Assembly: GCA_027624335.1 (NCBI GenBank)
Contig: JAQBWV010000015.1
Coordinates: 1 to 48,298, forward strand
Direction: 5' to 3'
From: Planctomycetota bacterium
GTDB taxonomy: Bacteria; Planctomycetota; Planctomycetia; Planctomycetales; Planctomycetaceae
Length of the DNA stretch: 48,298 nt
The position numbers were made by a program, and so were the translations under genes. Below the pieces are notes generated by a model that saw only the letters and a program-made list of their open reading frames with translations, searched no databases and had not been told where the DNA came from. Below are positions 38,154 to 42,906 of this stretch, piece by piece; within the stretch, counting starts at the first letter, position 1, and each line of letters begins with the position of its first letter.

Positions 38154-39626
38154 TTAGGTGTAAGCCTGCATGCCGTGTTCACCGATGTCGAGTCCTTCGA
38201 CTTCTTCCTGATCACTGACTCGCAGTCCCATCGTTGCTTTCAGAACGCTGCCGACGATCAGACAAAAGATCACGGTGAAGATGCCGATCGCGACGATCCC
38301 TGTGAGCTGTGCTACAAGTTGCTCGCCACCAGCCTTCGCTCCGAAGAGTCCGACGGCGAGCGTTCCAAAGATGCCACAGACGAGGTGAACACTGATGGCT
38401 CCCACGGGATCATCAATCTTCAGTTTCGTATCGACGAAGATCACGGCGAAGTAAACGATGACTCCGGCGATCAGTCCGATGATGATGGCGTCGAGTCCTG
38501 TCATTTGGTCAGCTCCGGCCGTGATGCCGACAAGGCCTGCCAGAATTCCGTTCAGAGCCATGCTCAAATCTGGCTTACCGGCACACACCCAGGAAACCAT
38601 CGCGGCAGATAAACCACCGGCGGCTGCCGCCATCGTCGTGGTGACGAGAACCAGGGAGACGGCACCAGGATCAGCACTCAGCACCGAGCCACCGTTGAAG
38701 CCGAACCAACCAAACCACAGTAGGAATACACCAATAGCCGCCAGCGGCATGTTGCTGGCCGGAATCGGCAACGACTGACCATTGACATATTTCCCTTTGC
38801 GAGCACCCAGCAGCGTCGCCATCACCAGAGCGCCCCAGCCACCGACGGAGTGAACCAGCGTTGAACCGGCGAAGTCATGGAATCCAGCGTCAGCCAACCA
38901 GCCAGCTCCCCACTGCCACGAACCGGTGATCGGATAGCTGATCGTGACGAAAGCTGTCGCGAAAATCAGGAACGACGAAAGTTTGATTCGACCGGCGACG
39001 GCTCCCGAAACGATCGTGCAGCACGTGGCCGCGAACATCGCCTGGAAGAAGAAGTCGGTAAAAGCGGTGTAGCCCGGGTTGTAACCCGAACCGCAGAAGC
39101 CTGGGTCGCTGAGTTGTGCGGTTCCGTTCAAGAGGAACCCGAAACCCGCGAATCCCAGCTTGCCAGCGACAAAAACATTGTCGGCGTTTGTGAAGTCAGG
39201 ATACATCAGGTTAAAGCCGAGAATCCCGTAGGTCAGCAGCCCGATACAGATAATCATCGTGTTCTTAAACAGGATGTTGACGGTGTTCTTTGATCGGGTC
39301 AGTCCGCTTTCCAGCGTGGCGAATCCAAGATGCATGATGAATACAAGCATCCCGGCCAGCATGATCCACAGGTTGTTGACGAGAAATGTCGCCGCTTCCA
39401 GGGCATCTACGCTCGCGGGTGCTTCGGCATCGGTCGAGCCTGCATCGGTCGGCGGTTCGTCAGTGGATGTCGCATCCGGAGCGGCTTCCGTTTCTGGTTC
39501 CGACGCTGCAGCGACCGAAGCCTCTCCACCGGCCTCGTCCTGAGCGATTAACGAGGTCATGGGAATCGCCATGACCACAACTGCCATCAGTGCTGGAAAC
39601 AGCCAGCTTCGTCCGAGTGTCAACAT
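38154..39626 (-). CDS. amt: Ammonium transporter with signal peptide and acidic extension
   Basis: 490 residues from ATG 39626, with GGAG ten bases upstream; upstream in-frame ATGs have none. A signal peptide (about 1-27, ending LIAQ) and an Ala/Glu/Asp/Thr/Pro-rich linker (about 28-70) precede the Amt core. FATLESGLTRSKNTVNILFK is the first-helix signature. The two pore histidines are seen in STLVHSVGG and ISVHLVCG, and WFGFNGGS is also typical. It forms a trimer in the inner membrane and takes up ammonium. No glnK/PII gene is next to it. A sigma-54 type promoter lies upstream, so nitrogen control is likely. Confidence 0.9.
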   Translation of the reverse strand: MLTLGRSWLFPALMAVVVMAIPMTSLIAQDEAGGEASVAAASEPETEAAPDATSTDEPPTDAGSTDAEAPASVDALEAATFLVNNLWIMLAGMLVFIMHLGFATLESGLTRSKNTVNILFKNTMIICIGLLTYGILGFNLMYPDFTNADNVFVAGKLGFAGFGFLLNGTAQLSDPGFCGSGYNPGYTAFTDFFFQAMFAATCCTIVSGAVAGRIKLSSFLIFATAFVTISYPITGSWQWGAGWLADAGFHDFAGSTLVHSVGGWGALVMATLLGARKGKYVNGQSLPIPASNMPLAAIGVFLLWFGWFGFNGGSVLSADPGAVSLVLVTTTMAAAAGGLSAAMVSWVCAGKPDLSMALNGILAGLVGITAGADQMTGLDAIIIGLIAGVIVYFAVIFVDTKLKIDDPVGAISVHLVCGIFGTLAVGLFGAKAGGEQLVAQLTGIVAIGIFTVIFCLIVGSVLKATMGLRVSDQEEVEGLDIGEHGMQAYT

Positions 39627-39860
39627 GCTGAGATACTCCAATTGAAATTGCATAACCAGGGAGGGAAACCATCGCGTGAAAATCGGAAATCCGCATTTCC
39701 GATCGACGACCAAACGGCAGCCAGTAGATTGACGTGCCACCATTCGAGGCATCTCTGCTCCTTACAAGGCCAGACCAGGCCAAAAGTGCTGAGAAAACCA
39801 AGGGTTTACGGTCGTGGGCAACCGGTCAGTGAACGTGAGCCGTGTCGCGATTCCAGACTC

Positions 39861-39875
39861 GCAACTGGTGTGCCA
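39861..39875 (-). promoter_or_regulatory. Sigma-54 (RpoN) promoter upstream of amt
   Basis: On the minus strand the sequence TGGCACACCAGTTGC matches the sigma-54 consensus TGGCAC-N5-TTGC exactly, with GG and GC ten bases apart. It points toward amt, whose start codon lies about 220 bases downstream of the predicted start point. Sigma-54 control of amt genes is well known in other bacteria. Only sequence supports this, and an activator site was not found. Confidence 0.65.
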
Positions 39876-40061
39876 CATGCTGACATTGAGAGCATTGAGC
39901 GATCGACGGATGACCTGCACCAAGTTGATTGCCCCGATTTCAACCTCAGGCTCACAATGCGACCGACGTTCGTTGAAACCCGATTGGAACACAGCGTTTG
40001 CTGGTATCGGTGAGAGAAACCGAAGCGATTCAACGCCCAGGAATGAATCGTTGATGATCTG

Positions 40062-40260
40062 ATGAGTCCGCAAACAATGGCTGTCGCAATTTCGAGACTG
40101 CCGCAGCAGTCGGCACCAGCTGGAGTCGCTTTGCCGGCAAGGCGTGCGCACTGTTTAAGCACACATGGCGATACTGGTGGCACTCGTACTGTGTCAGTGT
40201 CGATCTTGAGGGATTGTGTGCCACTGGTAGAGCCCAGTGGCATTCATCGAAACACGGTCG
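40062..40260. other. Palindrome-rich intergenic block between amt and the kinase gene
   Basis: The 39627-40325 interval has no convincing gene. This part contains several copies of a GTGCCAC/GTGGCAC word, ending in a perfect nine-base inverted repeat tgccactgg/ccagtggca with a six-base loop (40219-40242). The hairpin lies 84 bases past the stop of the minus-strand kinase gene and could terminate it. Frames here (for example 39806-40243 minus) look like non-coding repeat translations. Confidence 0.45.
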
Positions 40261-40325
40261 AAAGGGCCTTGTCACGTCCGCCACCGAACACTCGACGGAA
40301 TCTCATGCGAAGTGATCGTCGACAA

Positions 40326-42350
40326 TCAATGCTCGATTGAGCAGTCGGGGAGCATGATGCGGAGGCGGGAGACCGCGTCTTCGGTCAATGCAGTTCGCTT
40401 GAGGTTGAGTCTTCGAAGGATTCTGAACGCTGCCAGTGAATCAACGACCTGGTTCGTCACGTCGGTACCTTCAAGGTCGAGATCGGCAAGCGTCGCGAGC
40501 TCCTTGAGGCTCGCAACACCTTCATCACCGATCGAATCGTATCGAAGCCCGAGGCTCGTCAAATTGCGGCATCGCGTTAGAGATCCCAGCCCTTCATCTG
40601 TGACCAGCGTGTTGCCAATGTCCAGAAACCTGAGTTCTTTCAACCTCGCAATCTGACGCAACTGCGCGTCTTTGAGTCTTCCTCCCGACAGATTCAGATG
40701 CCTCAGCGATGAGTTCGAGACGATCAACTTCAGATTGTCGGAACTCAGCAGCTGAACCCCGCTCAGGTCAATTCCAATCACCGCGAAACTGACCTGCGGA
40801 AGCGGGTCGGTTGGCTTGACGACGGACTCGCCGGACCCTGTATCGACCCGAATCTCACGGGCGACGCGACGGGCCCATTCAATCAGCGAATCATTTGGAA
40901 CAGAGAATCTTTTCCCGGGGGGCAGAAACGGGAACGTACTGACTGGAGACGCGGGCGTCTGGGAATTGGCACCGGCACCGCTGACTGGAGTTTTTTCGTC
41001 TACCCGTGTTTTCAACGCCGACTTGACGGACTCCTTTTTTTCCGGCGGTCCCGACCCTTGTGACAAAGCAAACAGGACCGCAATCACGCCCGCACACGCA
41101 GTCCCCACAGAGATCGCCAACGGCCAGACGCTCTTCTTTACGTGACGCCTGATCAACGGCACTGGGGTTATAACCGCTCGACTGTCGAGATGATCAACGA
41201 AAAAATTAAGCGTCTCGTCCACGTACGAATCAAGCGCAGGGAGATCAATCGCCGGAACTGTCACGGGCTCCGGCTGAATCTCGAGTGACTTTGGATCCGT
41301 GACAAAGGCCTCAAGAACAGCAGCGACTTCAGCCGGAGTCTGAAACCGCTGAGCAGGGTCACGATGCAGCATTCGGGCGACAATATGCACCAGTACGGGC
41401 GGGACATTCTGGCGAAATGTACTGACGGGAGGAGCATCCGTATTGATGCGAGCCAGCAGTTTCTCCATCACGTTGTCGCCGCTGTAGGGCAATTCTCCAC
41501 AGAGTAGCTGAAACAGCGTGACTCCCAGTCCGTAGATATCCGACCGAATATCCACGGTGCGGGAACTCATCGCCTGTTCCGGAGACATGTAATCCGGCGA
41601 GCCCATGATCTGTCCGCTGCGAGTGACGTCGGCATCTTTTTCCTGAAAATCGTCGCCGCCCTGTGTCGCCAGCTCGGCCTGATGAGACAGCCGAGCCAAA
41701 CCCAGATCGAGAAGTTTGATCACTGGTCGGCGAGTCTTTGGATCCTTCGACACCAGCAGATTCGACGGCTTGATGTCGCGATGCACGATCCCACGCTCGT
41801 GCGCATGCTGCAGCCCGTTGGCCGCCTGTCGAATGCATTCGCAGGCAAACTCGATGCTCACCTGTCCGGGCTCGCGAATCAGGGCTTTCAGATCCCGTCC
41901 TGGAAAGTATTCCATTACGAGAAAGCAGCGATCGCCGATCTGGTCGGCATCAATGGCCCGTACGATGTTCGGATGGTTCAGGCTGGCGGAAAAAGCAATC
42001 TCCCGTTCGAACCGTGCTCGGGCAGTCGTGTCACCGTGCAGGTTCGTCGCCATCACCTTGAGAGCGACTTCGCGACGAAGAGTGATACTCTCGGCTTTGA
42101 GAACCGCTCCCATTCCGCCCTGCCCGAGCACGTCCAGCAATTTGTACTTGCCCAGAAACAGCTTGCTTTTCCCCGCAAGCAGCTGCCGAGCCTGCCACTC
42201 CGTCAGCCAGGTGCGAAGTATCAAATCACGAGCGACTCCAATAGCGTCCGATCGTGTAGCAAAATCAGCCGCCACGGCCACCTGCTCAGGACTGAGCAGA
42301 TTGCTGCGACGCAGAGTCGACATGAAAGACTCAACGGCAGTTGGCGTCAT
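40326..42350 (-). CDS. Membrane Ser/Thr protein kinase with C-terminal leucine-rich repeats
   Basis: 674 residues. An N-terminal helical stretch precedes the kinase domain (about 69-350). It has a glycine loop GQGGMGAV, catalytic K98 in VALKV, E117, HRDIKPSN (190-197) and DLG (215-217, in place of DFG, common in planctomycete kinases), then SPDYMSPEQ. A membrane helix lies at about 409-429. The outside part has four or so leucine-rich repeats (about 550-665; LRHLNLSGGRLKDAQL, LRFLDIGNTLVTDEG, LADLDLEGTDVTNQ). It would sense an external protein or ligand and phosphorylate cytoplasmic targets. The substrate is unknown. The start ATG 42350 has no clear ribosome site; M10 (42323) is an alternative. 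Confidence 0.85.
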   Translation of the reverse strand: MTPTAVESFMSTLRRSNLLSPEQVAVAADFATRSDAIGVARDLILRTWLTEWQARQLLAGKSKLFLGKYKLLDVLGQGGMGAVLKAESITLRREVALKVMATNLHGDTTARARFEREIAFSASLNHPNIVRAIDADQIGDRCFLVMEYFPGRDLKALIREPGQVSIEFACECIRQAANGLQHAHERGIVHRDIKPSNLLVSKDPKTRRPVIKLLDLGLARLSHQAELATQGGDDFQEKDADVTRSGQIMGSPDYMSPEQAMSSRTVDIRSDIYGLGVTLFQLLCGELPYSGDNVMEKLLARINTDAPPVSTFRQNVPPVLVHIVARMLHRDPAQRFQTPAEVAAVLEAFVTDPKSLEIQPEPVTVPAIDLPALDSYVDETLNFFVDHLDSRAVITPVPLIRRHVKKSVWPLAISVGTACAGVIAVLFALSQGSGPPEKKESVKSALKTRVDEKTPVSGAGANSQTPASPVSTFPFLPPGKRFSVPNDSLIEWARRVAREIRVDTGSGESVVKPTDPLPQVSFAVIGIDLSGVQLLSSDNLKLIVSNSSLRHLNLSGGRLKDAQLRQIARLKELRFLDIGNTLVTDEGLGSLTRCRNLTSLGLRYDSIGDEGVASLKELATLADLDLEGTDVTNQVVDSLAAFRILRRLNLKRTALTEDAVSRLRIMLPDCSIEH

Positions 42351-42906
42351 GCTGGGTGAGACGGGATCTTGAAAGGCGACGGCGGGCGACGCGAGGACTC
42401 ATTGAATTTGACCAGCGGCGTGGCTGCTGAAACGCGATCAAATCCGCCAACGGCGATGAGCGAGCAAAAATACCTCTACCGAACGGCACAACGCGATTTG
42501 TCGAGACCCGTGACATTTTAAGGTGGGAACCTTCTGCCCGGGATGTGACGTCCGAACGAATCGGCATGCCCCATGGCCGAACAAGGAAGCTCCCTTTTTA
42601 GTCATTCTTGTAGGGTCAACAACGTTTGGCGTGTGTGTCGAACTCGGTAGAGGTACACCGCCAATGCTATCCTCCGTCCAACGGCTCGGCAACATTCGAC
42701 TGGCTGACTTCACGCCGATTTCAGAATTGACATGGAAGGCGTCAGTTTCGGGCTCATGGGCGATCTTCACTGAATGCTGTGCATAGCCACGAATCACGGA
42801 TGGCAGGCAGCAGTTCATCGCAGAGTTGCGCTGCTGATTTCTTTACAGGCTCGGGAAACCGTCGAATCAGATTTGAGAAAGTGTGGAAACAACTACGGTC
42901 GGTGTT
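42351..42906. other. Divergent intergenic region before the ATP synthase operon
   Basis: About 560 bases up to the promoter candidate, between the kinase gene and the divergent atp operon. No gene, RNA or strong hairpin is seen. The ORFs here are short and lack family features. Confidence 0.4.

Follow-up and report, generated by a model that had tools for sequence, protein, structure and literature searches.

A conserved sigma-54 promoter box upstream of an ammonium transporter gene and a probable nitrogen regulon in Planctomycetia

The window, which is the whole stretch of 48,298 nt that was analysed, carries on its minus strand an ammonium transporter gene (amt, 38154–39626) that encodes 490 aa from the conserved ATG and whose product scores 400 bits against TIGR00836 (cut-off 343) and also matches PF00909. 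The open frame begins at 39752; the start common to the congeners G003 and G004 is at 39626 and is preceded by a GGAG/GGGG ribosome site. Positions 39861–39875 of the same strand read TGGCACACCAGTTGC, which is an exact match, and the only exact one in the window, to the sigma-54 −24/−12 consensus TGGCAC-N5-TTGC with its invariant GG and GC (PMC12316311). An initial annotation had described this box as an exact consensus with correct spacing that is oriented toward amt at a plausible distance, and both descriptions hold: the box faces amt, and 234 nt separate it from the start at 39626. Transcription from sigma-54 promoters starts about 12 nt downstream of the −12 element, which would place +1 at 39849, 12 nt past the C of that element, and would give a predicted 5′ leader of about 223 nt (39627–39849, minus strand) that includes the imperfect hairpin GGAGCA-gaga-TGCCTC. 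In two relatives (L110 and L166), the amt leader has, by eye, a perfect form of this hairpin (GAGGCA-N4-TGCCTC). Rfam searches of the leaders gave no family beyond chance (one chance-level match per search) and none at its curated score. The upstream neighbor of amt is a gene for a 674-aa protein kinase that has the same direction and ends at 40326. The region between this gene and the box (39876–40325, minus strand), the expected place for an activator site, is poorly conserved and has no convincing shared motif; because the DNA between the kinase gene and amt is poorly conserved in congeners, we took the open reading frames found there to be spurious. Farther upstream, a match to 6S RNA (RF00013; 51.4 bits, gathering score 46.4) lies at window positions 42469–42656 on the minus strand.

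The consensus is short, and we compared its frequency with control counts. The window as a whole is not enriched, with 45 matches at two or fewer mismatches against 49.8 expected; in the 7.08-Mb genome, the pattern has 16 exact matches and its backwards version 11, a slight excess only; and the six genomes of the genus together contain 127 against 97, which is barely above the control. The window and genome counts are those that might be seen if a 10-base pattern had merely happened to fall upstream of amt, and they make a single match weak evidence; therefore, the case must rest on where boxes are located. From the genome-wide count of the backwards pattern, we estimate a density of about 0.0004 exact matches in 500 nt of a single strand.

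To assess location, we scanned up to 500 nt upstream of 56 amt genes from this genome and its relatives, counting sites with up to one mismatch only if GG and GC were intact. An exact box was found at 18 of the 56 genes and a box with at most one mismatch at 38, counts that come from non-independent relatives and are not probabilities. Shuffled sequences gave averages of 0.05 exact boxes and 0.91 with at most one mismatch, the opposite strand gave 0 and 4, and the backwards pattern gave 0 exact and 1 with at most one mismatch on each strand. Addition of one further gene with an exact box (L117) raised the totals to 19 and 39 of 57; the sample, at 56 as at 57, comprises under half of the amt matches listed, and one gene (L111) was kept out of it for length (175 nt upstream, no box). 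Of the 34 genomes, 29 have an amt box with at most one mismatch, as do 23 of the 28 genera, and at 18 of the 57 genes there is none within 500 nt. Among the window amt and its six closest relatives, five of seven carry a box, which is exact in four and has one mismatch in the fifth. The box is thus kept at orthologous genes, as expected of a sigma-54 promoter, though not universally: the G015 orthologue of the window amt has no box in the 900 nt upstream. In G011, only 175 nt could be scanned at one amt copy, and the second copy has an exact box. Another family of the same class has exact boxes in G040, G049, and G057 and none at amt within 500 nt in G054. Two Amt-like genes of this genome, on contigs C163 and C347, likewise lack a box within 500 nt.

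The boxes are conserved amid diverged DNA. In 15 ungapped comparisons with this genome, the 50 nt before exact boxes were identical at 9–21 of 50 positions, and the DNA 10–60 nt past exact boxes was identical at 5–38 of 50 positions, with 38 of 50 at amt2, so that at some sites the downstream DNA is conserved as well; all these comparisons were anchored on exact boxes, whose ten fixed bases are identical by choice of sites. Among named records, with one mismatch allowed, 9 of 79 amt regions contain a box within 650 nt, and none contains one on the opposite strand. Exact boxes occur in Adhaeretor mobilis (L029), a Deltaproteobacteria MAG (L026), and a Haloferula MAG (L012), and three planctomycete records (L002, L023, and L070) have no box at amt in the 650 nt scanned. 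In the Haloferula MAG, from a verrucomicrobial genus, the exact box lies at −183 of amt, and the arrangement may extend beyond planctomycetes.

The initial annotation had predicted a sigma-54 nitrogen-control regulon and had suggested a check for the same box at other nitrogen genes. This genome has exact boxes before an amtB-activator-PII-PII-glnD operon and before glnII, and boxes with one mismatch before its third amt gene and a NarK-type gene; these predicted sites lie at nitrogen-assimilation targets, as would be expected of an Ntr regulon. The best model for the glnII product is NF041605 at 385 bits, which is under the cut-off of 500, and we refer to it as a type II-like glutamine synthetase. 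Among 16 glnII genes, seven have an exact box in the 500 nt upstream and 12 have one when a single mismatch is allowed, compared with none on the opposite strand and with 0.00 and 0.24, respectively, in shuffles; four have no box with at most one mismatch in this range, and a scan to 900 nt raised the counts to eight and 13 of 16. The NarK assignment rests on a match of 279 bits, under the cut-off of 311.7, to a protein that is truncated by the end of the sequence stretch examined. NarK-type genes have an exact box in 9 of 22 cases and a box with at most one mismatch in 15, with none on the opposite strand and no such box within 500 nt at the remaining seven; this count covers 22 of 25 matches, three partial G025 matches (L420–L422) being left out. 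The type I glnA of this genome has no box within the 6 kb examined. Boxes thus recur at amt, glnII, and NarK across many genera and nearly all on one strand, in numbers far over those of shuffles wherever shuffles were run and within diverged DNA, and for these reasons we regard a chance origin of the box upstream of amt as extremely improbable despite the genome-wide counts.

We also clustered the genes that follow exact boxes in the six genomes, using all 127 sites, a set that was left unfiltered and includes some sites inside long frames or at contig ends; the identity of each named family was checked on one member. The nitrogen-related clusters are amt2 (six genomes), glnII (five), NarK (four), and amt1 (three), and further clusters are groEL (four), dnaK (four), Usp genes (three), a DabA-type gene (three), and several unknown families. 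One family of about 460–540 aa follows an exact box in five of the six genomes (L181, L302, L335, L370, and L387), and the member searched (L302) matches no Pfam or NCBIfam model. The available text of an in silico survey reports chaperones and UspA as enriched in the Planctomycetia sigma-54 set (PMC12316311); these targets are common to the two analyses, and the overlap is external evidence that boxes of this type are meaningful. It also bears on an alternative reading in which the sigma-54 promoter is real and the signal is not nitrogen, amt being part of a broad stress or envelope regulon. The recurrent exact boxes at groEL, dnaK, Usp, and DabA-type genes fit that reading, as does the weight that the published set, in the same portion of the survey, gives to chaperones and stress proteins. 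Against it, three nitrogen-assimilation classes (amt, glnII, and NarK) share the box and one amt copy leads an operon with PII and glnD, and we judge a regulon of this kind unlikely to explain the amt promoter. Rather, we consider it very probable from the sequence comparisons that amt is expressed from this box as a sigma-54 (RpoN) promoter within a nitrogen regulon, most likely one that responds to nitrogen limitation, and that this regulon would comprise ammonium transporters, a PII/GlnD sensing operon, a type II glutamine synthetase, and a nitrate/nitrite porter.

Such a regulon depends on RpoN and at least one activator. A check for rpoN in the genome, also suggested by the initial annotation, found a single full-length copy (TIGR02395, 384 bits, cut-off 277) whose product has the activator-interacting, core-binding, and DNA-binding domains (PF00309, PF04963, and PF04552). 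The rpoN gene of Planctomyces limnophilus complements a Salmonella rpoN mutant, according to the accessible part of a paper that cites Leary 1998 (PMC3906078). PF00158 has 26 matches in the genome, about 18 of which are strong and represent sigma-54 activator genes; 9 of the 18 contain a literal GAFTGA. The presence of rpoN, of about 18 activators, and of the box at other nitrogen genes supports the predicted nitrogen-control regulon. The expectation of NtrC-type genes is borne out in part: sigma-54 activators are plentiful, but in this genome, which is 93% complete, none of the seven of the 18 that were compared with NCBIfam models (one of them a partial frame) reaches the NtrC equivalog cut-off of 558.6 bits, and one activator beside nitrogen genes has no receiver. 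Three receiver-type activators score 420–437 bits on the NtrC model. Gene families such as PSCyt1, PSCyt2, PSD1, and DUF1501 are also found in the genome and are part of the basis for calling it planctomycete. At another locus (L171, 4004–4018), an exact box precedes a gene pair for a circularly permuted ATP-grasp protein and an Alpha-E protein beside a receiver-type sigma-54 activator, and G005 also has an exact box before the ATP-grasp gene.

Of four activator neighborhoods examined (contigs C31, C210, C222, and C451), only that on C451 directly adjoins nitrogen genes. There, an exact box is followed by five genes in one direction, namely amtB, one for an activator of 327 aa, two for PII, and glnD, which we infer to form one transcript. 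PII is identified by two matches to PF00543 and GlnD by TIGR01693 (558.9 bits, cut-off 519.4), so that PII and GlnD, as expected for an Ntr regulon, are present. Both PII proteins retain the T-loop Tyr. The activator has a GAFTGA loop and only nine residues ahead of its AAA+ domain, and a domain scan found no receiver; HTH_8 was not matched in it and was matched in all four orthologues scanned. Its AlphaFold model has a mean pLDDT of 61.8, too weak for a fold search. Orthologues (E ≤ 1e-90, all with at least 60% identity) were found in 16 of 120 genomes of the family, including this one and all six of the genus, in a search that scored up to 18 first-look candidates per genome. Sixteen further genomes have only matches of 41–55% identity, which we read as paralogues, and many relatives have a box at amt and no clear orthologue of this activator. 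Because orthologues occur in only 16 of 120 genomes, it cannot be the general activator. The orthologue in G030 keeps a receiver (PF00072, 50 bits) with Ala at the position of the phosphorylated Asp and Glu instead of the usual Lys; we read this degenerate receiver as a probable stage in receiver loss.

On the preferred reading of a nitrogen-responsive sigma-54 promoter, RNA polymerase with RpoN would wait as a closed complex on the −24/−12 box; low glutamine would lead GlnD to modify PII; and the ATPase of an activator would then remodel the closed complex, so that amt transcription would begin near 39849. The best single candidate for that activator in the genus may be the C451 protein without a receiver, whose gene lies between amtB and those for PII. 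Because it has no phosphorylation domain, it would be regulated in trans, with PII itself as one possible agent, or through its own abundance. A more specific proposal is that Planctomycetia have a sigma-54 nitrogen regulon without NtrC, in which the formerly NtrC-like activator of one lineage lost its receiver within the amtB-PII-glnD operon and came to be switched directly by PII, bypassing the NtrB-NtrC phosphorelay; we regard this as doubtful and put it forward only tentatively.

Alternatively, the window amt could be driven by a receiver-type NtrC-like activator encoded elsewhere, with the C451 activator serving its own operon only. Genomes that have no C451 activator still carry the box at amt, and receiver-type activators do exist, including the three at 420–437 bits. 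One of these three is encoded on C210 (L175, 955–6284), where an exact box is followed in one direction by an oxygenase-like gene, a histidine kinase gene, and the activator gene. These genes may form a self-contained two-component operon under sigma-54 control. The type I glnA lies on the same contig about 13.5 kb away, and we regard this activator as a fair rival for the control of amt. The scores of the seven activators compared, all below 558.6 bits, and the four neighborhoods, with C451 alone directly beside nitrogen genes, count against this alternative, which is compatible with the preferred reading and which we consider only a little less probable than its opposite.

The proposed nitrogen regulon resembles the NtrB-NtrC/sigma-54 regulon of Pseudomonadota (glnA, glnK-amtB, and nitrate uptake), as described in the available text of the survey, in its sigma-54 box, PII, and GlnD and in targets for ammonium transport, glutamine synthetase, and nitrate uptake (PMC12316311). 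It differs in that none of the seven activators compared reaches the NtrC cut-off and the activator beside the nitrogen genes has no receiver, in that the glutamine synthetase target is type II-like and not the type I glnA, in that glnD follows the PII genes in one cluster, and in that boxes often lie 150–450 nt before the start. The C451 activator is like PspF and HrpR/HrpS in having an AAA+ domain with a GAFTGA loop, a C-terminal DNA-binding region, and no sensor at the N terminus; for PspF and HrpS, control in trans is described (PMC7057263). It is unlike them in being encoded between amtB and PII genes and in having an orthologue, in G030, whose receiver is retained with Ala in place of the phospho-Asp.

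The view that few sigma-54 promoters have been described in this phylum stands for experiments, as far as the literature was searched, but not for predictions, since in silico regulons exist for the group. In its available text, the 2025 in silico survey finds nitrogen enrichment strongest in Pseudomonadota, weaker in certain classes that it names, and missing from all others, and does not name Planctomycetia (PMC12316311); it cites Studholme and Dixon 2004 on the Pirellula sigma-54 regulon, and that study might already hold parts of the present regulon. The anammox planctomycete Kuenenia has an amt-PII cluster induced by ammonium limitation, and the accessible part of that report does not mention sigma factors or NtrC (PMC7438415). 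No title on a planctomycete sigma-54 nitrogen regulon was found among those listed in our literature search, which covered mostly sources other than subscription journals. Boxes at amt are visible in 23 of the 28 genera scanned, which belong to two families, one of them planctomycete and the other from the same class, a class that the survey, in its available text, does not name for nitrogen (PMC12316311). If the reading is correct, these bacteria have a nitrogen-sensing circuit that can be tested, and they provide a natural example of the loss of a phosphorylation domain from an activator placed between an ammonium channel and the PII proteins that partner it.

A search for an activator motif shared upstream of the amt1, amt2, amt3, glnII, and NarK boxes (23 promoters from six related genomes) found none that is convincing. 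The top 8-mers occur in four classes and six promoters, against at most four and four in 20 single-base shuffles; because the genomes are related, their promoters are not independent samples, and we claim no motif from them. About 150 nt upstream of the glnII box, a block TCGATGGAATTCG..GGTTATTCT is strongly conserved amid diverged DNA in five genomes of the genus (L222–L225 and L227), with one base that differs nearby in G003. Its first word has a copy with two mismatches in G011; among 13 amt promoters, the first word is absent and the second occurs once (G001 amt2). This block is a possible candidate for an activator site. The glnII leaders of five genomes of the genus (L222, L223, L224, L225, and L227) also share a hairpin-like element, GGGAGCGCTCAC..TCTGG..CCAGAGCTCCC, at about −170 to −120 from the start, which had no Rfam match in the four of the five loci searched. 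The sequence AGGAGCGCTC is seen again upstream of glnII in G015 and G031.
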